Shown here one piece after another: positions 145 to 48,477 of a DNA stretch of 48,632 nt (positions are counted from its first letter, which is position 1; every line of letters starts with the position of its first letter). The notes below the pieces were generated by a model. It was given only the letters and a program-made list of their open reading frames with translations. It was not told the origin of the DNA and did not search any database. A program made the position numbers and the translations under genes. Origin of the DNA: Lentisphaerota bacterium (GTDB lineage Bacteria > Verrucomicrobiota > Lentisphaeria > Victivallales > UBA1829); NCBI GenBank assembly GCA_015061915.1, contig SUVR01000014.1:1-48632 (forward strand), read 5' to 3'.

Positions 145-3100
145 TTGGCTTTAGGACAAGCATCTCTTATGGTCGGAGCTGGCTTTTCTCTCAATGCTGA
201 TCGTAAAAATTCTGCAACACCATTACCTCCCGATTGGAATAAATTGTCTGATGCATTCATTCAGGAATTATATGGAACATTTCCAGAAGAATACCAAAAA
301 AGAATGCGTCAGTCAAAAAATGTATTACAATTGGCTCAGGAATATGATTCCACATTTTTGCGCAGCAAATTAAACATTTTGGTCCGAAGTTTGATTCGAG
401 ATACAGAATTGTTTCCAAATGAATTATATAAGAAAATGCTGAATTTGCAATGGCATGACGTTTTTACAACGAATTATGATACATTGTTAGAAAGAGCAGC
501 GTTGCAAATAGTTGACCGGAATTATACTACAATATACAATTGTAAAGATCTTGCTTTATCCGAATCACCAAGAATAATAAAGTTGCATGGCAGTTTGCAT
601 TCTGAATCAACTCATTTGATTATTTCAGAGGAAGATTATCGTACATATCCTTCGGAATATGCCCCATTTGTTAATACAGTCCAGCAGGCAATTATGGAAA
701 ACACACTATGTCTGATTGGATTTTCGGGAACAGATCCAAATTTCTTAAATTGGGCTGGTTGGGTTAGAGATCATCTGGAAAAATCAATGTCTCCGATTTA
801 TCTTATTGGTATTTTGGATATTTCGGATTCTGAATATCGAGTCATGACAGAAAAGAGGATTATTCCGGTTGATTTATCAAAAGTATATGATACAAAAGAT
901 CACAAAGATGTATTGTCAAAATTTTTTGATGATTTAGAATCGCCCACCCCGGAAAGTTGGTCTGTAAAATTCAATCCATTCCATATAAAAGATAAAAATT
1001 CTAGTGCTACAGATTTGATTAAAGTTACAAATATGTGGCAAGAAGAAAGAGAAAAATACCCCAAGTGGATAGTTGTTCCACATCAAAAGAGAAAAAATTT
1101 GGTTGCAAGCATTGAACTTTCTGACAATATTGCAGAAAGTTGCAAGAACTTGCCTGTTCTCCAAGATATTCAAACTATTTACGAATATAATTGGAGATTG
1201 GAACACGGATTGATGTGTATTTTGCCGCAAATGATTTCCAGTTATGAATATATTGTAAAAAAATATAATCCATATTCTCTGGAGGATAAATTTTTTGCAG
1301 AACAATCAAACACAAAACAGATCAGCTATACAGAGGACATCAAAACAAAGTGGCTTGATTTAATGTTTTCTATATTTCGCTGGAGCAGAGAAAATGATGA
1401 TGTTGGTAAACTGGAGCAATATCGTGATTTATTGAAAAAAATAGCTGATGAAAAAGATAATTCTATTCAGGATAGGTTACATTATGAGCTCGCACTGAAT
1501 GCTTTATTTAAACCGGATATCAAATCACTAGAAGAAGTCTTAAATTCCTGGAAAAAATATTTGTATCATCCTGAATGGAAGATTAAATTTGCTGCTTTGA
1601 GTGCAGAAATAGGAAACATAGATGATGCAGATAAAGAATTGCATTATGCACTGCAGGAGATACGTTCGGCAATCCCCAAAGGAAAAATCAAAGAAGATTT
1701 TTATTGGTTGAGTCTAGAAGGTATTGTTTTAATTAGTTTGCAAATGCTTGATCAAAATGCAAAATTAACTGATAAGCAAAGTGTTAATCCTCTTCAGGAA
1801 GAATACAGGCAAAGGCTTGCAACTCTCGCAAAAGATTATTGTAGTCCTTGTAATGAGTTGGATTTTTTTGATTTGCTGTTGCAATCAGAAAAATCGCTGT
1901 TTAATGGAGAGATCCGTAAGCGAAATTTTGATCATACCTCAACTTCTTTTGTTGCAAGTTCTGGCTGGAATAGAGATTTTTTAGATGGGTATCAATGCAT
2001 TAGATTTTTTGAAATAATCGGTCTCCCTCTATTTTGTGGAAACGTTAATTTGAAAAATAAAACTCTCGCTCTTGCGGCCAAAAAATTGACACAATTTATG
2101 CCTATAGTTTCACTTTCATTGATAAATCGTATCGGTAAATCAGATGATATAACAATGGAATATATCTTTGGTCAGCAACAATTATATTCAATGCCCATTA
2201 ATGATGCCAATGAGCTGGCTCAAGCATATGTTAAAGAGGCAATATACCTGTTGGGATCACATTCGGAACAATTGGCTTCTTTTGAAACTAATTTTTATTC
2301 AAGACTGTTCAAAAACCTAATAGAAACTGTTTCAAGGCTTGCTACAAAAGTTGATGCCGAGACGCTACAACATATTTTTGAATTTATGATAAAATGTTAT
2401 AATAGCGATATAGATCGTTTGTTTTTGAGCTTCGAGAATTTCAAAGAGTTAGTGCGGCATGTTTTTGAATCAATGACCTCTGATGCAATATACGCTAACT
2501 TGAAAACACTTTTGAATATAAAACTTCCATTGCCTCCAATGGCTCAACATTCTTGGATATCTCCATTTTCAAAAATTTCTTGGTCAGGTTACAAAATAAA
2601 TCCAAATGAATGTGATGAAGAACTGAATAGGCTAATAAATACTTGGTTGGATTACCTGCAAGTATCCAATGAAGCCTTTTTCAGAAGAGAGGCAATGTTA
2701 ACGCTACATTCTCTGGATGAATTAGGTGTCCTGGCAATGGAAACTCAAAATGAAATATCAAAGTTTTTGATGAGCAAGAAAAATAAATATAATTTGCCTG
2801 AATTATATAATTTTTATACTTGGTCTATTTTGAAAATAATGCGGAACTATGAAAAAATCGATGATGTAAAAAAATCGTTATTAGCTTATTATAAAAGTTG
2901 TGTTTTTGAATTTTACAATCTTTCCAACGGGCAGATATCATGGTCAATGTCAGATTATTCGTTTGAAGATAAATGTTATTCAATAGTAGCCAATTGTTCT
3001 GCACTGAAAGAAGCAAATGATTATTTCTTGGAGTTGTTGCCAGATGATGCTTGGCATATTTTTGTTAATATCCAAAAGTCTCTCATTAATTCCAAGAAAA

Positions 3101-3831
3101 TTTTGATGGAGAAAATTAATAGTTCTTCGCAATGGGATAACAGCATAAAAGCAAGTGTCATAAAAAAAATGAGAGCTTTGGATAGAGTTCTTGGAGAAGT
3201 AATAATACCTGCCTCAAAAAACAATCAAAGACGAAAGAAAGAGCTTCGCAACTTTCTATCAAATAACCAAGATCTGTATGCGTTTCCTGTAGCGCGAGTT
3301 GCTTTGATGATAAAAGAAAAAAAATTTGATTCAACTCTCAATAAAGAGTTTGTTACCGCAATCACGTCCCCAGATGCTAAGCTATTGAGCAATTACGAAC
3401 AAGCAATTTATAATGCGTATTATTATGCAAAAAGAGAAATAATACCAGCTGTTCCGAAAGGAGTCACAGATTTATTAGTGTATTCTATAGGACTAAAATC
3501 TGATGCTTCTTTTAAGAAATTATGTAAATTATTGGGAGCGATTTTTCCCTATTGTAATATAGGACAAAAAAACACCAAATATTTACTTGATTATTTGAAA
3601 GATCTCGCAGCTCAAACGTCATTCGAATCAGAAAAAATACGTTTCTCGATTGAAGAACGCTACGATTATAGGTTCGCTGTTGCATATTTGGCAGCATGTA
3701 TTCACAAGGATTTTGCTCAAAATGGTAGAGCCATTCCCAGCGAGTTACAAATATGGTTTGATATATGCCATTCTCCAAAAGAATTCCCTTCTGTCCGAAA
3801 TATTTGGAGTCAAGTTATGAACAGTAAATAA
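145..3831 (+). CDS. SIR2-domain protein, probable NADase antiphage effector
   Basis: The N-terminal ~270 residues form a SIR2-like domain (SIR2_2 type). Numbered from the TTG at 145, the visible motifs are GAGFS at 11-15, TTNYDT with Asn110, KLHGS with His148, and GFSGTDPN at 192-199. In defence SIR2 proteins the equivalent Asn/His pair cleaves NAD+, so abortive NAD+ depletion is the likely activity (inference). The remaining ~950 residues match no domain I recognise. They are rich in Leu, Lys, Glu and aromatics, without membrane segments, and are probably helical; in DSR-type proteins the long C-terminal part is the phage sensor. The protein is of similar or greater length than stand-alone DSR proteins (about 1000 aa). 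The gene is strikingly AT-rich compared with everything after 5138, suggesting transfer. The start is uncertain: no strong ribosome site precedes TTG 145, and coding-like sequence continues upstream in frame to 91 without a normal start codon. The stop is 16 bp before the Fic gene, so both probably form one transcript. Confidence 0.85.
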   Translation: MALGQASLMVGAGFSLNADRKNSATPLPPDWNKLSDAFIQELYGTFPEEYQKRMRQSKNVLQLAQEYDSTFLRSKLNILVRSLIRDTELFPNELYKKMLNLQWHDVFTTNYDTLLERAALQIVDRNYTTIYNCKDLALSESPRIIKLHGSLHSESTHLIISEEDYRTYPSEYAPFVNTVQQAIMENTLCLIGFSGTDPNFLNWAGWVRDHLEKSMSPIYLIGILDISDSEYRVMTEKRIIPVDLSKVYDTKDHKDVLSKFFDDLESPTPESWSVKFNPFHIKDKNSSATDLIKVTNMWQEEREKYPKWIVVPHQKRKNLVASIELSDNIAESCKNLPVLQDIQTIYEYNWRLEHGLMCILPQMISSYEYIVKKYNPYSLEDKFFAEQSNTKQISYTEDIKTKWLDLMFSIFRWSRENDDVGKLEQYRDLLKKIADEKDNSIQDRLHYELALNALFKPDIKSLEEVLNSWKKYLYHPEWKIKFAALSAEIGNIDDADKELHYALQEIRSAIPKGKIKEDFYWLSLEGIVLISLQMLDQNAKLTDKQSVNPLQEEYRQRLATLAKDYCSPCNELDFFDLLLQSEKSLFNGEIRKRNFDHTSTSFVASSGWNRDFLDGYQCIRFFEIIGLPLFCGNVNLKNKTLALAAKKLTQFMPIVSLSLINRIGKSDDITMEYIFGQQQLYSMPINDANELAQAYVKEAIYLLGSHSEQLASFETNFYSRLFKNLIETVSRLATKVDAETLQHIFEFMIKCYNSDIDRLFLSFENFKELVRHVFESMTSDAIYANLKTLLNIKLPLPPMAQHSWISPFSKISWSGYKINPNECDEELNRLINTWLDYLQVSNEAFFRREAMLTLHSLDELGVLAMETQNEISKFLMSKKNKYNLPELYNFYTWSILKIMRNYEKIDDVKKSLLAYYKSCVFEFYNLSNGQISWSMSDYSFEDKCYSIVANCSALKEANDYFLELLPDDAWHIFVNIQKSLINSKKILMEKINSSSQWDNSIKASVIKKMRALDRVLGEVIIPASKNNQRRKKELRNFLSNNQDLYAFPVARVALMIKEKKFDSTLNKEFVTAITSPDAKLLSNYEQAIYNAYYYAKREIIPAVPKGVTDLLVYSIGLKSDASFKKLCKLLGAIFPYCNIGQKNTKYLLDYLKDLAAQTSFESEKIRFSIEERYDYRFAVAYLAACIHKDFAQNGRAIPSELQIWFDICHSPKEFPSVRNIWSQVMNSK

Positions 3832-3847
3832 CAAAGAAATCTGTGCT

Positions 3848-4732
3848 ATGACCAAAATATCCATCAGATTTTTTAATGACCGGGAGGTCAGAGCGGCTTG
3901 GGATGAAGGCACTTCCCAATGGTTCTTTGCTGTCGTCGATATTGTCGCCGTGCTGAATGAGCAATCTGATTACACCAAGAACCGCAACTACTGGAAGTAC
4001 CTTAAAAACAAGTTAAAAAAGGAAAATCCTCAACTGGTTAGTGCCGCTAACCAGTTGAAATTGACTGCCCCTGACGGTAAAAAACGCCTGACTGACTGTT
4101 TCGATAGTGCCGGTGTCATTGAACTTGCAAAGAACTTCCCAAACACCAAAGCTGCCAAATTCCTTGACTGGTTCCTTTACAGCGAAAATACCATTGACGG
4201 GCAGAGCAAGAAAAAGGCTTATGCCCTCTTTGAAAGTGGTTTGCTCTCTACTCTTCAGCCTGGCACGATCAAGTGTCTGCAGCAAATCCACGCCTATATC
4301 TTCGGCGGACTCTATGACTTTGCCGGTCAGATCCGCACTAAAAACATCAGTAAGGGCGGCTTCTCTTTTGCCAATGCCCTTTATTTTAACACCATTCTGC
4401 CAAACATTGAGGATATGCCTCAATCCTCCTTTGATGAGATCATCAACAAATACGTTGAAATGAATGTGGCGCACCCCTTTATGGAGGGCAACGGCCGCAG
4501 TACCCGTATCTGGTTGGATCTGATGTTGAAATCGTCTTTATCCAAGTGTATTGATTGGAGTGCTGTCAACAAAAACGCTTACCTCGAAGCCATGCGTGAA
4601 AGCGTCATCAACAGTTCCAATCTGAAATCCCTGCTGAAACCTGCTCTGACCGATAAGATCAACGACCGCGAAATGTTCATGAAGGGCATCGACTACTCCT
4701 ACTATTACGAAGAGGACTCCACGGATGCTTAA
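3848..4732 (+). CDS. BRO-N domain / Fic-domain fusion protein (putative AMP-transferase)
   Basis: 294 aa. Residues 1-~112 resemble the BRO-N domain of phage antirepressor and DinD-like proteins (for example WFFAVVDIVAVL at 25-36). Residues ~120-294 are a Fic domain very like the compact Neisseria meningitidis type: GLYDFAGQIR (154-163), a substrate-flap region around ISKGGFSFAN (167-176), and the full catalytic motif HPFMEGNGRSTR (209-220). Fic proteins usually transfer AMP from ATP to a target hydroxyl. In this class (III) a C-terminal helix carries the inhibitory motif [ST]xxxE[GN]; here it reads SYYYEE (284-289), with Glu in place of the final Gly/Asn. All catalytic residues are intact, so it is probably active. 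The Shine-Dalgarno signal is weak, and the gene sits 16 bp after the SIR2 stop, consistent with co-expression. Base composition is intermediate between the SIR2 gene and the genes that follow. The joint role with SIR2 is inference; a toxin-like or regulatory role is possible. Confidence 0.85.
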   Translation: MTKISIRFFNDREVRAAWDEGTSQWFFAVVDIVAVLNEQSDYTKNRNYWKYLKNKLKKENPQLVSAANQLKLTAPDGKKRLTDCFDSAGVIELAKNFPNTKAAKFLDWFLYSENTIDGQSKKKAYALFESGLLSTLQPGTIKCLQQIHAYIFGGLYDFAGQIRTKNISKGGFSFANALYFNTILPNIEDMPQSSFDEIINKYVEMNVAHPFMEGNGRSTRIWLDLMLKSSLSKCIDWSAVNKNAYLEAMRESVINSSNLKSLLKPALTDKINDREMFMKGIDYSYYYEEDSTDA

Positions 4733-40242: not shown

Positions 40243-41418
40243 ATGAAAAGACTTGATGATTTGAAGCAGACCATTGCCGGGATCTCACCCCGTTTGCGAG
40301 TACTCTCTGATGCGATCTGGAATCATCCTGAACTGGCGTACAAAGAATACTTTGCCGTGGAGCAGGCAAAGAAATTTCTGCAGGAACAGGGCTTTGATGT
40401 AATCAATCCTTATTGTGATATTGAAACATCGTTTCGTGCGGAATATGGCAGCGGTACCCCGGTTTTTGCCATCTTTGCGGAGTACGATGCTCTGCCGGAT
40501 GTGGGACACGCCTGTGGGCACAATCTGATTTGTTCTGCCGGTCTTGCCGCATTTTGCGCTGTGGCGGAAACAATGAAACAGCAGCAGCTTCCCGGAAAAG
40601 TTGTTCTGTTGGGATCGCCGGCGGAGGAATCCCACGGGGGAAAAGTCAAAATGATCCAAGCCGGTTGTCTGGAAGGGATCGATGCTGCTATGATGGTCCA
40701 TCCCTCTTACCGGACGACACCGGATACCGGTTCCTGTGCGATCACCCGTTACAATGTGGTGTTCCACGGGAAAGCCGCTCACGCTGCCGCAGCACCGGAA
40801 TTGGGAATCAATGCGCTGGCGGCGGTCAATCTGCTCTTTTCCGGAGTCAATGCGTTTCGGGAAGTGCTGCCGGAAGATGCCCGGATGCACGGGATCATTC
40901 TGGATGGCGGGGAAGCGCCGAACATCATCCCTGCCCGGGCGGAATGTCGTTTCTTCCTGCGGTCCGTCAGCGAAAAATGGATCAAAATGATGGAAAAGCG
41001 TTTTCTGGATATCGTCCATGGGGCGGAACTGATGACCGGGGCGACAGCAGAAGTCAGCCTTTTTAATGTGCCTTATATGTCCCGTATGCCCAACTCCGCT
41101 CTGAACCGGATCTATCTGGAAAGCATGACGGCAAACGGGTTCAAGTATGTGATCCCTGCCCACGGTGCGAGAGGGTCTTCGGACTTCGGCAATGTCTCCC
41201 ACGCGGTGCCGGGGATCCACCCCTATTTTCCCATCGCAGATCACGAGATCGCCGCCCATTCCCCTGCGTTCCGGGAAGCAGCAGGAACGGATTTCGCCTT
41301 TGAAAATGCCATGAAAGCGGCGTCATCCATCGCCAATGTGGCGTTGACCTATCTGACGGACCCGGATTTCCGGAGTGAAGTCGATTCCGAGTTCAAGCAG
41401 ATGTCTGAAAGAGAGTGA
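40243..41418 (+). CDS. M20-family amidohydrolase (AbgB/indole-acetyl-amino acid hydrolase-like)
   Basis: 391 aa. Metal-site motifs are AEYDALPDVGHACGHN (Asp82, His89, Cys91, His93) and SPAEESHGGK with the catalytic Glu pair near residue 130; a late His occurs in HGARGSSDFGNVSH. The Cys in HACGHN and the SPAEE wording place it with M20D amidohydrolases acting on N-acyl or aminobenzoyl-glutamate-type amides, not with carboxypeptidases. First gene of a two-gene operon; the GH28-like gene begins 3 bp after its stop. The pairing hints at an amide-linked group on a uronic acid or other sugar, but this is speculation. Confidence 0.92.
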   Translation: MKRLDDLKQTIAGISPRLRVLSDAIWNHPELAYKEYFAVEQAKKFLQEQGFDVINPYCDIETSFRAEYGSGTPVFAIFAEYDALPDVGHACGHNLICSAGLAAFCAVAETMKQQQLPGKVVLLGSPAEESHGGKVKMIQAGCLEGIDAAMMVHPSYRTTPDTGSCAITRYNVVFHGKAAHAAAAPELGINALAAVNLLFSGVNAFREVLPEDARMHGIILDGGEAPNIIPARAECRFFLRSVSEKWIKMMEKRFLDIVHGAELMTGATAEVSLFNVPYMSRMPNSALNRIYLESMTANGFKYVIPAHGARGSSDFGNVSHAVPGIHPYFPIADHEIAAHSPAFREAAGTDFAFENAMKAASSIANVALTYLTDPDFRSEVDSEFKQMSERE

Positions 41419-41421
41419 TTT

Positions 41422-42723
41422 ATGAAGAATGTTCTGGATTTCGGTGCAGTTGGCGATGGTATCACAAAGGATACGGCAGCGGTTCAGCGTGCCATTGATC
41501 AGGGCGGCACGGTTTACTTTCCGGCGGGGACCTATCTCTGCGGCTCCCTCTACCTCCGCTCCCAGACCACGCTGGAACTGGAAAACGGCGCCGTGATCCT
41601 GGGCAGTCCCGATCCGGAAGACTACAATAAGCCGGATTTCTGTCCACAGAACAGTGTCTGCCTGCCTGAAAAAGCCTTCGGTGCCCACCTGATCATTGCG
41701 CTGGAAGTGGACCACGTGGCGATCCGGGGAGGAAAGATTGATGGCAACCGGGCGGCGTTTTTTGATCCTTCTCTTTACAGCCGGGATGACTTCCCCGGGT
41801 GGCGTCCCTCCCAGATGCTGTATTTCTGCGAGAGCAGTCACATTCTGCTGGAGAATGTGGAAATGGTCAATTCTCCCTACTGGACCTGTTTCCTCCATGG
41901 CTGTACGGACATTACGATCCGCAGCGTGACTATCCGGAATCAGAAAGGCGTCTGGAACGGGGATGGTCTGGATATCGACTGTTGTCGTCAGGTCGTTGTA
42001 AGTGATTGCATTATTGATTCTTCAGACGACAGTATTGCCATCCGTGCCTCCGGAAAGGACCGCCTTCTTCATACGGAAGGGATCTGTGAGGATATTACTG
42101 TGACCAACTGTGTGCTGCGGTCCGGACAGGCGGGCGTCCGTCTGGGGGTGGGCAATGGTTTGATCCGGCACTGCACATTCAGCAATCTGGTGATCCGGGA
42201 CGGCAAGTTCGGGATCTGTATGCTTTCCACCTACTACCCGGAACTCTTCCCGGCAGGTGCGGAAGGCGCGGGGATCGCGGATATTCTCTTCTCCAATCTG
42301 TATCTCAACGCCCAGATCCCCATTGATATTTCATCCAACTGGGCAGATAAACCGTTGAAGACGTCCCGCAAGGAGATCCGGGGCATCACGATCCAGAACG
42401 TTCGTGGCTATGGCTGCCGGACTTCAATCCTGCAGGGGAATCTGGACTACAATGTGAGTGATCTCACTTTTTCCGATATTTCTCTGGAGATCACGGGCGG
42501 GGAGGACATTCTGAACCCCAATCATCCGAGCGTGCCGATCTGCTATCTGCGTCCCTGCGCATTTTATGTTGCTTACGCGGCGGATGTGCTGTTCCGGAAC
42601 TGCCGGATCCGCTGGAAAGATGAAACACCCCTCTGGCAGCAGGCGATCGAAACGGAAAATAACCGGGATCTGATCTTTACGGATTGCCGCTTTGCCGTGC
42701 CGCGCGGCGGGGCGGGTCAGTAA
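41422..42723 (+). CDS. GH28-like (polygalacturonase-type) beta-helix protein
   Basis: 433 aa. An N-terminal FGAVGDGITKDTAAVQRAI segment with PAGTY is the standard start of GH28 and related beta-helix enzymes. NGDGLDI (179-185, Asp181) and DSSDDSIAIRA (Asp202, Asp203) match the three catalytic Asp positions of polygalacturonases. The usual GHG segment, however, reads SGQAGVRLGVGNG: the catalytic His is missing, as in some GH28-like subgroups with other substrates. There is no signal peptide, so it is intracellular, which argues for oligosaccharides as substrate. Its last 7 bp overlap the 3' end of the convergent AraC gene. Confidence 0.87.
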   Translation: MKNVLDFGAVGDGITKDTAAVQRAIDQGGTVYFPAGTYLCGSLYLRSQTTLELENGAVILGSPDPEDYNKPDFCPQNSVCLPEKAFGAHLIIALEVDHVAIRGGKIDGNRAAFFDPSLYSRDDFPGWRPSQMLYFCESSHILLENVEMVNSPYWTCFLHGCTDITIRSVTIRNQKGVWNGDGLDIDCCRQVVVSDCIIDSSDDSIAIRASGKDRLLHTEGICEDITVTNCVLRSGQAGVRLGVGNGLIRHCTFSNLVIRDGKFGICMLSTYYPELFPAGAEGAGIADILFSNLYLNAQIPIDISSNWADKPLKTSRKEIRGITIQNVRGYGCRTSILQGNLDYNVSDLTFSDISLEITGGEDILNPNHPSVPICYLRPCAFYVAYAADVLFRNCRIRWKDETPLWQQAIETENNRDLIFTDCRFAVPRGGAGQ

Positions 42724-43538
42724 TTTGCCGGCATCTTTTTCTGAAAATTCCGCGGAGAAAGCCCGGTTTGCGTGTGGAAGAACCGGGAGAAGACAAACGC
42801 ATTGCTGAAGCCCAGTTCTTCTGCTGTTTCTTTGATGGTTTTTCCGCTGGTGGAAAGTTTGGCGATCGCATGGCTGGTCAGGATCTTCGCCAGAAACTTA
42901 CCCGGAGGCAGCCCGAAATCACGCTTGAAACGCTTGACAAAGGCATTGCGGGAGAGATTGCACTGTGCTGCCATATCATCGATCCCGGTTTTTGCGGTGG
43001 CGGTGGTGTTCAGAAAATCCAGCAGCGCCGCATAACCTGGGGTCTTGAGCAGCTGCAGGATCATGCTGGAGTCTTCCTGCGTCACATATTCACTCAACTT
43101 GTTGTAACACAGTTCCCGGAAGAGGAGACACTGCACCAGTTCCGGCTCGCTGTTGATCGTGTGGATAATCCGGTTCCGGGCTGAATTATCCGTCATTGTG
43201 AGAAACGAATTACGCGGCTGGACCAGTGAGACGGATTGTCCGAGCGTGGCAGTGAAGTGAATGGACAGGTGGTGCATGGTATCGTTCAGATTGTGTGTGA
43301 TCTCACAAAACGGCGGGATCAGAAACCAGTCGCCCGGGTTGCAGTACGCCTTTTGGGTATCGTCGGCAAAATAACTCTTTCCATCCGATTCCAGCACAAA
43401 GATCAACCGGAAGTGGGGGTAGGAAAATTTCAGGTTCAGTGCGCGGATTCCGTAATAGATATTTACGACTCCGATCTCCATCTGTCGCAGAAGGGCATTC
43501 AAGCCGCTCTGCTTGAAATTTGTCATTGTTACTGCCAT
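42717..43538 (-). CDS. AraC-family transcriptional regulator
   Basis: 273 aa, GAGGAG upstream. N-terminal cupin-like sensing half (KAYCNPGDWFLIPPF turn near 85-100), C-terminal double helix-turn-helix (GIDDMAAQCNLSRNAFVKRF and KTIKETAEELGFSNAFVFSRFFHTQTGLSPRNFQ in outline). Divergent from the glycyl radical enzyme gene, with both promoters in a 193-bp gap, and tail-to-tail overlapping the GH28-like gene by 7 bp. It most likely controls one or both, plus itself. Confidence 0.93.
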   Translation of the reverse strand: MAVTMTNFKQSGLNALLRQMEIGVVNIYYGIRALNLKFSYPHFRLIFVLESDGKSYFADDTQKAYCNPGDWFLIPPFCEITHNLNDTMHHLSIHFTATLGQSVSLVQPRNSFLTMTDNSARNRIIHTINSEPELVQCLLFRELCYNKLSEYVTQEDSSMILQLLKTPGYAALLDFLNTTATAKTGIDDMAAQCNLSRNAFVKRFKRDFGLPPGKFLAKILTSHAIAKLSTSGKTIKETAEELGFSNAFVFSRFFHTQTGLSPRNFQKKMPANY

Positions 43539-43679: not shown

Positions 43680-43731
43680 ATATGTCAGATCGTTTCATGT
43701 ATGTCAGCTAACAGGGAAACAGGTGGGCAGA

Positions 43732-45885
43732 ATGCTCCATTGTTCAACCGATAAAGAATATTTCAGACAGGATTTTCAGGACCCCGGTCTGCCGGAAACG
43801 GGGATCGCCGCAGATCTGCTTGCCGACTCTCTCCGGGATTTTCTGGCAGAAAAATCCTTTGCCACATCCCGGCAGGAGCATACAGCGGCATTTAACTGGC
43901 TGCTGGAAAAGATCCGGATCGGCGTTTCGCCGGATGACCTGTTTATCACACTCGGATTCTGGGGCAGAAAGCCTATTGAACAGGTCATCAGCATTGCCCG
44001 TTATCAGCGGCTTGAGAAAGAACAGTGCGCCGGAACACTGAAACTGAAAAATGATTTTATCTGCTCCGGTTTCGGCTGTTTCTTCCTGGATTATGCACAC
44101 AATGTGCCGGATTGGCAGAAACTTCTTTCACTGGGCTTTCCCGGTCTGCTGAAGCGGGCGGAAGAAGCGGAAAAAGCGTTTTATGCTGCGCATGGGGAGC
44201 AGGTCTCTGCCGATGAAAAAGAATTTTTTGAAGCAGTGAAAAGCGAATACACCCATGTGCTTGCCCTGCTGGACCGGATCATCACAACTGCGGAGAACGC
44301 CCGTTGTCAGCCCGCCACGATCCATGCATTGTGTTCTCTCCGGACCGGTGCCCCCGAAAATTTTTATGAAGCCATGCTGATGATCTGGCTGTACTATCAG
44401 CTTTCCGAGTACGGCGATTGCGTTCAGACCCGGTCCTTCGGCAATCTGGATGTTTTGTTGATCGACTATTACCGGCGTGATCTGGCGACAGGGACCTTTA
44501 CGGAAGAAGATATCCGGACCGTCGTGCGGAATTTTTATTCCAAAGTCAGTGCCATGAAATATTACTGGGGACATCCCTTTTATATGGGCGGCACGCAGAA
44601 AGACGGCTCCAGTGCCTTCAATGAACTTTCCGTTCTGCTGCTGGAAGAGTACGGCAAAATGGGGATCTATGATCCCAAGATCCAGATCAAGGTGGCGGAA
44701 AATACGCCGGAACACATCCTGAATCTGGCACTGAACCTGATCCGCAGCGGGAAGAACAGCATTGTTTTTGTGGGGGAACCGTGTATCCGGTCCACGATGC
44801 TCCGGCACGGTTATACAGAGGAAGATGCCCGGACCGCTGTTGTCAAGGGGTGTTACGAATACTGCCCCATCGGTTCTGCGGTGGAGACTGCTCCCTGCAT
44901 TGTCAGTTTACCTTCTGCCCTGATGCAGTGTCTGCGGAAAAATGCCGATTCTGCCACCTTTGAAGAACTGTTTGAGCGCTGTGTTGCGGACATCAAAACG
45001 ATCATTGACCAGGGTATGACTGTGGCGGATGATTTTGAACAATATCTGGACTGGGTCAACCCCGTTCCCCTCTTCTCCGGTACCTCGGAAACTGCACTTG
45101 CCCGGGGAATCGAAGTTTATGGCAAAGGCGCAAAGTACAACAATTCCAATGTCTGGTTCACCGGACCTGCCACCGCGGCGGACAGCCTCGCCATGGTGAA
45201 AAAATTTGTTTACGACCGGAAGGAGATTACCCTCCCGGATTTTCTGGATATTCTGGATAAGAACTGGGCGGGCGCTGAAAAGCTGCAGCGCAGGATCGTT
45301 CATGACCGGGACCGTTTCGGCAACAACAGTCCGTATGACGCCGCCGTTGCCGTTCCGTTTCTGGAACAACTGGCGGACCATGTCAACTTCCGTAAAAACA
45401 GCCGGGGCGGATTCTATACCACAGCGCTGCACAGTGCCACTTACTTTGTTTCTTTCGGCAGAGATTCCGGAGCAACCCCGGATGGACGCAGGGCAGGGGA
45501 GGAATTTACCAAGAATATCTCGCTGGCACAAGGGGGAAGTCTTTGTGGTGTAACAGCTATGATTTCCTCTGTGTTGAAGCTGGATTCCACAAAATTCATG
45601 GCGGATTTCCCGGTCGATGTGATGCTCCATCCCTCTGCTGTTGAGGGCGCAGAAGGGCTCGCTGCCATGCGGGAACTCCTGATGACCTACATCCGGAAGG
45701 GCGGACACGCCATACACTTCAACATCTTCAGCGCAAGTATGCTGGAAGAAGCACAGAAAGATCCGGAAAAGTACCGGGATCTGCAGGTGCGGGTCTGCGG
45801 CTGGAATGTCCTCTGGAACGATCTGGATCCGGAACGGCAGGAACAGTACCTCAAACAGGCACGCGCCAACGAAAATCTCTGTTGA
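43732..45885 (+). CDS. Glycyl radical enzyme (pyruvate formate-lyase family), substrate unknown
   Basis: 717 aa from ATG 43732 (AGGTGG 5 bp upstream; GTG 43723 would add three residues). The thiyl-radical motif is KGCYEY, with Cys374 and the general-base Glu376 in the C-x-E order of dehydratases/lyases such as glycerol dehydratase and choline lyase, rather than the Cys-Cys of pyruvate formate-lyase. The C-terminal glycyl-radical loop is VRVCGWNVLWNDL, with Gly690; typical enzymes read RV[AS]GY, so both neighbours of the Gly are unusual (Cys, Trp). Length is somewhat short for the class (~780-850). It is oxygen-sensitive, so it implies an anaerobic host, and needs a radical-SAM activase, which is not in the window. 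Likely regulated by the divergent AraC gene. Confidence 0.9.
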   Translation: MLHCSTDKEYFRQDFQDPGLPETGIAADLLADSLRDFLAEKSFATSRQEHTAAFNWLLEKIRIGVSPDDLFITLGFWGRKPIEQVISIARYQRLEKEQCAGTLKLKNDFICSGFGCFFLDYAHNVPDWQKLLSLGFPGLLKRAEEAEKAFYAAHGEQVSADEKEFFEAVKSEYTHVLALLDRIITTAENARCQPATIHALCSLRTGAPENFYEAMLMIWLYYQLSEYGDCVQTRSFGNLDVLLIDYYRRDLATGTFTEEDIRTVVRNFYSKVSAMKYYWGHPFYMGGTQKDGSSAFNELSVLLLEEYGKMGIYDPKIQIKVAENTPEHILNLALNLIRSGKNSIVFVGEPCIRSTMLRHGYTEEDARTAVVKGCYEYCPIGSAVETAPCIVSLPSALMQCLRKNADSATFEELFERCVADIKTIIDQGMTVADDFEQYLDWVNPVPLFSGTSETALARGIEVYGKGAKYNNSNVWFTGPATAADSLAMVKKFVYDRKEITLPDFLDILDKNWAGAEKLQRRIVHDRDRFGNNSPYDAAVAVPFLEQLADHVNFRKNSRGGFYTTALHSATYFVSFGRDSGATPDGRRAGEEFTKNISLAQGGSLCGVTAMISSVLKLDSTKFMADFPVDVMLHPSAVEGAEGLAAMRELLMTYIRKGGHAIHFNIFSASMLEEAQKDPEKYRDLQVRVCGWNVLWNDLDPERQEQYLKQARANENLC

Positions 45886-47142: not shown

Positions 47143-48477
47143 TTACGGAAACGCGGCAATAAAATCATCAATCAGGGCATCCAGTTTTTTTCGGTCCTTG
47201 ATGACGCTCAACCAGCGTTCCGGGATGGCTGAATAGCCGTAATACGCCCCTGTGATCTGCCCGCAGACTGCACCGATGGAATCCGCATCTCCACCCAGAT
47301 TGACTGCTTCGATCAGCGCGTCTTCAAAATTTTCCGTTGTCTGGAACGCCCACAATGCCGCCTGCAGCGTGGATACTGCCCAGCCGGAATTGTTCACATC
47401 TTCCCGTCGAGTGTATTCCGACTGACAGGCGGTCCGGTTCCCTTGTAAATGATCCCGGCAGATCTTTGCCATCTGATCCAGTGTTTCCCGGACTTTTCTG
47501 CTGGCGTGTGTCAGATCGCTGATCTCATGAATGACCCGGTTGCTCCGATCGTTGCCGTTGAGCAGCAATGTGGGGGCAAACCGCATAAGTGAGCCATTCC
47601 CTTGAGAACTTTCTGCGCCGTTATGCCGCTCACCCCGTTTCAGACTGCGTATTCCCATCACAGTTGCACCCCCGACATCAAAAGCATAGGGGAGGCTGGA
47701 GCAGAAACCCTCATCATACCAGCGGATGAAGTTTTGTGCGATGTCTTCCAGATCATATCCCTGCTTTCGGACGGCGCTTTCCATAATACACAATGCCATG
47801 GCTCCGTCATCCGTCCAGTATCCGGGCGGTGTGTTAAAGTGTTTGCAGGCAATCATTTCTGTGATGCGTGGAAAGGAATCCATTTCCATGAACTGTACCG
47901 GTGAACCGAGACAATCCCCCACGATCAACCCCCACAGCATACCTTTGAGCCGGTCATTTTTTTCAATTTCTGTCATTATGATACCCCGTTTTTGTCCAGA
48001 CTGTTTCAGCATGGACGGTAAATTGCCCACAAAATCAAAATCTCCCTTCAAAACAACACAGGGAGAGGTAAATGGATCCAGTACGATTCCGCTGATTTCT
48101 TCTTTCCCCAGAGCCAGACGCATAGCATCGAAAAAATGCCGTTCCAACTTGCTGAAGCTGTTGCCATATTCTCCCATCTGCTCCATATTTGAGAACACCG
48201 GGAGGAAAAATTCGTCTCCGTTCCGCGGAACAGTTGGAACAAACTTCATATCCTGCTGAGGAGAAAAGGTATCGCCTTCTTTCTTACGGAGGATTGCCGC
48301 CGTGTCCGCTTCGCAGATCTGGATATTGCCCGGAATCCAGACGAAGCTGTCACGCAGACATCGCAAAACAGCCACATAATGATTTTCGCATGGTTTATTT
48401 TCCAGTTGCTGCACCAGCATCCGCAGAATATTTCCGTTTTCCAATTCTTCCGGATCGACTTTGCCTTCTTCTCTCAT
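47143..48477 (-). CDS. SseB-domain / ADP-ribosylglycohydrolase fusion
   Basis: 444 aa, AAGGAG before the ATG at 48477. Residues ~15-150 resemble the SseB N-terminal domain (LRMLVQQLE at the start, a V-P strand, then FFLPVFSNMEQM). Residues ~172-444 are an ADP-ribosylglycohydrolase of the DraG/ARH type: GLIVGDCLGSPVQF, TDDG (222-225), GNGSLMR (293-299) and GGDADS (395-400) supply the dinuclear Mg site. The enzyme would remove ADP-ribose from protein or nucleic acid, or open related N-glycosidic bonds. The SseB part is probably a protein-interaction module. All catalytic Asp are present. Divergent from the partial gene at 48591. Confidence 0.88.
   Translation of the reverse strand: MREEGKVDPEELENGNILRMLVQQLENKPCENHYVAVLRCLRDSFVWIPGNIQICEADTAAILRKKEGDTFSPQQDMKFVPTVPRNGDEFFLPVFSNMEQMGEYGNSFSKLERHFFDAMRLALGKEEISGIVLDPFTSPCVVLKGDFDFVGNLPSMLKQSGQKRGIIMTEIEKNDRLKGMLWGLIVGDCLGSPVQFMEMDSFPRITEMIACKHFNTPPGYWTDDGAMALCIMESAVRKQGYDLEDIAQNFIRWYDEGFCSSLPYAFDVGGATVMGIRSLKRGERHNGAESSQGNGSLMRFAPTLLLNGNDRSNRVIHEISDLTHASRKVRETLDQMAKICRDHLQGNRTACQSEYTRREDVNNSGWAVSTLQAALWAFQTTENFEDALIEAVNLGGDADSIGAVCGQITGAYYGYSAIPERWLSVIKDRKKLDALIDDFIAAFP

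Follow-up and report, generated by a model that had tools for sequence, protein, structure and literature searches.

How is a glycyl radical enzyme (GRE) switched on when no activase is encoded beside it? This question is raised by a gene in a window of 48,632 bases, which is the entire contig C17 of a 2.49 Mb draft genome (31 contigs, 97.4% complete). The host is a Lentisphaeria bacterium, probably from a herbivore gut, judging from the habitats of its relatives, whose MAGs came from deer cecum (same genus) and sheep rumen (a more distant member of the Victivallales). The open reading frame proposed by the first-pass annotation is real (Table 1), and its ATG start is likelier than the GTG of a longer call (43723-45885, plus strand, 720 aa), since L043, a relative from the same genus, retains the ATG at 43732 but lacks the upstream GTG. 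The product exceeded the Pfam cut-offs of both the PFL-like domain (PF02901, 230.8 bits, cut-off 24.3) and the Gly_radical domain (PF01228, 68.2 bits, cut-off 22.2), which makes it a GRE, an oxygen-sensitive radical enzyme. A plasmid search returned only relatives with less than 60% identity.

Table 1. Features of the GRE locus in the window; residue numbers refer to the 717-aa frame.
Feature	Coordinates	Strand	Remarks
Glycyl radical enzyme (GRE)	43732..45885	+	717 aa, ATG start; predicted eliminase type; no neighbouring activase
Gly loop RVCGW	45790..45804	+	Residues 687-691; radical Gly690 (codon 45799-45801)
Cys loop GCYEYC	44848..44865	+	Residues 373-378; thiyl Cys374, CxE Glu376, non-conserved Cys378
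His123	44098..44100	+	Aligned with glycerol dehydratase His164
Direct repeat TATGTCAG, two copies	43681..43707	+	Starts 19 bp apart; probable AraC-type operator for the GRE
AraC-family regulator	42717..43538	-	273 aa; divergent from the GRE
GH28 (rhamnogalacturonidase/polygalacturonase-like)	41422..42723	+	Neighbour only; overlaps the AraC 3' end
M20 amidohydrolase	40243..41418	+	Neighbour only; beside the GRE in the same genus only

Gly690, Cys374 and Glu376 lie exactly where the first-pass annotation had placed them, whereas its description of the radical loop as unusual does not hold. The loop RVCGW, found alongside a mid-protein Cys (Cys374), fits the GRE fingerprint RVXG[FWY] given in the accessible part of PMC11528403, and R[VI]CGW was found in 35 of the 38 related GREs of the tree set, two others not matching and the sequence of L043 being cut before the motif. 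The Gly loop is thus a clade-wide signature within the published fingerprint, and we rejected it as a peculiarity of this enzyme. Nor does the second nearby Cys carry the meaning once attached to it: L044 to L048 have Ser, Ala or Thr in place of Cys378, which accordingly does not define the group and, being unconserved, was rejected as a catalytic feature.

The remainder of the Cys loop is more informative, GCYE being common in the wider clade. A CxE motif in the Cys loop is the eliminase motif of GREs, with a role for the Glu (accessible part of PMC7077986). The target carries this motif as C374-Y-E376, and it is conserved among the target's relatives. Furthermore, all 11 rows of the clade alignment keep His123, whose aligned counterpart in glycerol dehydratase is residue 164. 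By alignment, His123 would correspond to the His that tunes the Glu in HypD (His160) and in glycerol dehydratase (His164). The CxE motif and the aligned active-site His support an eliminase-type enzyme, as had been suggested from the C-x-E order. In a different locus, one GRE (L059:10195-12411, minus strand), which lies in tandem to another, has GCYG in place of GCYE and thus lacks the eliminase Glu, which its tandem neighbour keeps.

The first-pass annotation had named placement in an already characterised clade with known substrate as the result that would overturn its reading. This is not the case, as no NCBIfam cut-off was reached. The best model was TIGR01774 of the PFL2/glycerol dehydratase subfamily (248.1 vs 678.2 bits), the HypD equivalog NF043068 scored 225.1 vs 1100 bits, and the scores for the CutC, sulfopropanediol dehydratase, indoleacetate and 4-hydroxyphenylacetate decarboxylase, PFL and PRK09983 equivalogs were all far below their cut-offs. 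No characterised family claims the GRE, which on sequence grounds belongs to an uncharacterised, putative eliminase clade. When the clade profile was compared with solved proteins, HypD, glycerol dehydratase and PflD were the nearest. A structure predicted from five sequences (pLDDT 65.8, pTM 0.71) was a weak model with no usable pocket, and Foldseek searches with it confirm the GRE fold only. In a search of mostly freely accessible papers, we recognised none that deals with the GREs of these Lentisphaeria or with the corresponding activases.

The lack of a neighbouring activase, already noted in the first-pass annotation, was borne out: none of the 19 PF04055 (radical SAM) matches in the genome lies on the target's contig, although a nearby activase is typical, but not obligatory, for GREs. 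Matches at E <1e-170 were found in 8 of 387 genomes of the phylum, all of the same class. The target belongs to a nine-row clade (SH-aLRT 100; window, L043, L044, L045, L046, L047, L048, L089 and L090). Its identity is 83% with the same-genus copy (over 518 compared columns) and no lower than 49% with any of the remaining seven members. Two members (L045 and L046) have an adjoining activase. No activase was present in the DNA examined for six others (window, L044, L047, L048, L089 and L090), which extended over at least 8 kb downstream in L044, L048 and L089, but over no more than about 2.4 kb on the downstream side of L047 and 0.5 kb on the upstream side of L090; L043 runs into a contig end and can therefore not be classed as orphan or otherwise. 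The orphan status of the target GRE is hence real and recurs in its relatives, and since the tree does not separate the three subgroups of the clade, the cis activase could have been lost once or several times.

The first-pass annotation had advised looking for the activase in the rest of the genome, and two candidates came to light there. The genome holds two PFL-like GREs and two activases above the TIGR02494 cut-off of 174 bits, on contigs C8 and C21; of the two GREs in the assembly, the target alone has no activase next to it. The C8 activase gene overlaps that of a paralogous GRE, 46% identical to the target and located in its sister clade. The C21 activase, which we favour, is encoded by an intact 300-aa frame (319.6 bits) with no GRE adjoining it. 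It groups with the activases of L064, L070, L074 and L075 (SH-aLRT 98), in all four of which the gene order is GDSL, a GRE of 681-684 aa, activase. On C21, a GDSL gene 67-79% identical to those of these four loci is followed directly by the activase, 25 bp away (L065:9642-11229), and tblastn of the 681-684-aa-type GRE against the 20-kb C21 stretch gave no credible match (best E 0.021, off the junction). As the GDSL gene directly precedes the activase with no trace of a GRE, the activase was probably retained after the loss of its GRE.

Several observations connect this activase with the target clade. The cis activases of L045 and L046 are 60% and 56% identical to that of C21 and 37% and 39% identical to that of C8; being of the C21 type, they suggest that the C21 activase most likely acts in trans on the target. 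Five genomes have a target-clade GRE for which no cis activase was demonstrated; four of them, and two of the 56 others, encode an activase sharing 66% identity or more with that of C21 (Fisher p 0.00014 for the 61 genomes, 0.0011 without the target's own), a test that ignores kinship, the five genomes representing three genera of one family, which weakens the count. Both a target-clade GRE and a C21-type activase are also found in a genome of another family (G123). Genome G298 has an orphan target-clade GRE and no C21-type activase, its matches being 47% and 54% identical, and two activase pieces in it probably represent a single gene divided between two contigs. In a genome of the same genus (G001, 72% complete), in which the GRE is cut by a contig end, no activase exceeded the cut-off.

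We consider it somewhat probable that the target is a catalytically intact eliminase of its clade, under AraC control and with no cis activase, whose Gly690 radical is set in trans, most likely by the C21 activase. In the proposed sequence of events, this radical SAM activase, left from a GDSL-GRE-activase operon that would have lost its own GRE, would install the radical on Gly690, which would then generate a thiyl radical on Cys374. The thiyl radical would abstract hydrogen from the bound substrate, a hydroxylated compound, and Glu376, with His123 tuning it, would drive out an adjacent group, which is probably water. Such chemistry would be known in kind.

Other sources of the radical have to be weighed against this reading. 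As the Gly loops of the compared GREs (target, C8 paralogue and relatives) are so nearly identical, the C8 activase could also serve the target in trans, with the C21 activase serving something else or decaying, and the C8 enzyme is, after all, the only other GRE of the genome and a member of the sister clade. We nevertheless regard this as unlikely, because the cis activases of the target clade are of the C21 rather than the C8 type, and because an intact C21 activase would be left with no client. It is quite improbable that the true activase is absent from the assembly, for example just past the contig end, which lies 2.7 kb beyond the GRE. Indeed, a genome that is 97.4% complete could be missing a third activase, and in this draft the window spans one full contig, with the GRE ending 2747 bases from its edge. 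However, two opposite-strand genes intervene before that edge, so no operon would be shared with an activase beyond it, and the three relatives with long downstream stretches lack an activase there as well.

The nature of the enzyme itself could also be questioned. The superfamily names in Pfam and NCBIfam read PFL-like, which would fit a non-eliminase GRE, such as a C-C lyase akin to pyruvate formate-lyase. The Cys loop of PFL is a Cys-Cys pair, whereas the target has GCYE and no such pair; the PFL model TIGR01255 scored 71.7 bits (cut-off 994), far under the eliminase models, and the solved relatives that rank highest by profile are eliminases, all of which makes a non-eliminase very unlikely. 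We find it barely credible that the protein is a decaying or non-catalytic GRE-like protein in no need of an activase, an idea to which the missing cis activase and the lack of a fixed genomic partner across genera might lead. It is countered by an open frame in which all catalytic residues are kept, by the degree of identity to the same-genus copy and the other seven clade members, and by five orphan GREs of another genome (G045), all of which keep, by motif, the Cys-loop Cys and the C-terminal radical-loop Gly.

Activation in trans by the C21 enzyme, our preferred reading, leaves the control of the gene to be considered. Exact copies of TATGTCAG are located at 43681-43688 and 43700-43707, directly before the GRE; these are the only two in the window, and both are kept in the same-genus copy. 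Of 100 shuffled versions, 21 had two or more copies and 6 had the spaced pair when up to three mismatches were allowed. An AraC gene of the same cluster is divergent from and adjacent to the GRE in 10 of 23 neighbourhoods (L062 having been dropped as a copy of L043). The divergent AraC protein therefore likely controls the GRE through the TATGTCAG repeats. The link to the GH28/M20 pathway through a shared AraC regulator, which the first-pass annotation had considered, is not borne out: the AraC gene is convergent with M20-GH28, no TATGTCAG repeat was found upstream of M20-GH28 in the window search, and these genes are kept beside the GRE in the same genus only. A general GH28/M20 link was accordingly rejected.

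Other neighbours vary between loci, and no single gene recurs at all target-clade loci. A DUF4838 gene lies near the target-clade loci L044, L047 and L089, a glucuronoyl-esterase-like gene near L047, and an alpha-L-rhamnosidase gene near L089 and L046. These glycan-related neighbours suggest work on plant-wall sugars and fix no substrate; perhaps it is a plant-wall-derived polyol or sugar acid, the weakest inference of this report. DUF4838 genes occur beside or near GREs of two clades (L044:12739-15696, L089:5345-8317, L047:7039-10029 and L064:7676-9967; assigned by Pfam in L044 and L089 and by similarity in L047 and L064), and their product is possibly a functional partner. Upstream of the paralogous GRE on C8, AMP-ligase, aminotransferase and ferredoxin-oxidoreductase-like genes (L042:171-5005) suggest an aromatic or 2-oxo acid context; the target does not share this gene set, and arylacetate chemistry, considered for the paralogue, was set aside for the target. 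Elsewhere in the window, an SseB-like domain is fused to an ADP-ribosylglycohydrolase (47143-48477, minus strand), and a large SIR2-like protein of 1228 aa followed by a Fic/BRO-N protein (145-4732, plus strand) may form a defence pair at that end of the contig.

The discovery of GREs relies on the rule that a GRE adjoins its dedicated activase. In 17 genomes, all chosen for having GREs (14 plus G135, G123 and G298), we found 95 GREs and 63 activase matches, and 32 of the 95 GREs break the rule, with no activase within 6 kb, some of these orphans sitting at contig ends (e.g. G019 C186, G041 C105, G298 C233 and C53). The clearest example is G045 (five contigs, 99% complete), with seven GREs and two activases, in which five GREs are separated by 0.5 Mb or more from every activase of the same contig. 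Two Gly-loop variants in this genome (L094-L100), RISGH and RKTGF, fall outside RVXG[FWY]. Other genomes follow the usual rule, for instance G010 with 7 GREs and 7 activases. Shared activases as such are not new, since PflA of E. coli serves more than one GRE. A bolder reading, which we consider less likely than not, is that in the Lentisphaeria a few radical SAM activases each serve several unlinked GREs acting on various sugars of the plant wall to degrade them, that the GREs multiply and enter glycan loci partnerless, and that the target is a client of an activase whose own GRE was lost. If shared activation holds true, substrate prediction from gene neighbourhoods and expression tests would need the right trans activase, for which that of C21 is the named candidate here. 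The target is an ordinary-looking, intact GRE in which the recurrent absence of a cis activase is real, and it points to a GRE group outside the characterised families in herbivore-gut Lentisphaeria, several members of which lie near glycan-degrading genes.

Among known systems, HypD (trans-4-hydroxy-L-proline dehydratase, PDB 6vxc) is the nearest by profile (E 1.4e-92) and has the GRE fold, the CxE motif and the aligned His in common with the target; it differs in having GCVE where the target has GCYE, and the target scored far under the HypD equivalog cut-off. B12-independent glycerol dehydratase (PDB 1r8w) follows as the second-best profile match (3.8e-87), with aligned Cys, Glu and His164, whereas its substrate-contact pair His281-Ser282 aligns with Gln232-Thr233 of the target. 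PflD/YbiW is the best single-sequence solved relative (8id0, E 7e-56) and the top Foldseek match of the target model (8yjo, about 22% identity in the structural match), even though the target reached no equivalog cut-off. This GRE with a sugar-like substrate cleaves 1,5-anhydromannitol- and 1,5-anhydroglucitol-6-phosphate (accessible part of PMC12441222). With respect to activation, the closest parallel is provided by threonyl radical enzymes, for which one activase for two enzymes is called atypical in the accessible part of PMC11528403. There, too, radical enzymes outnumber activases; the activase is adjacent in that system, whereas the target has a Gly and its candidate activase is encoded on another contig.
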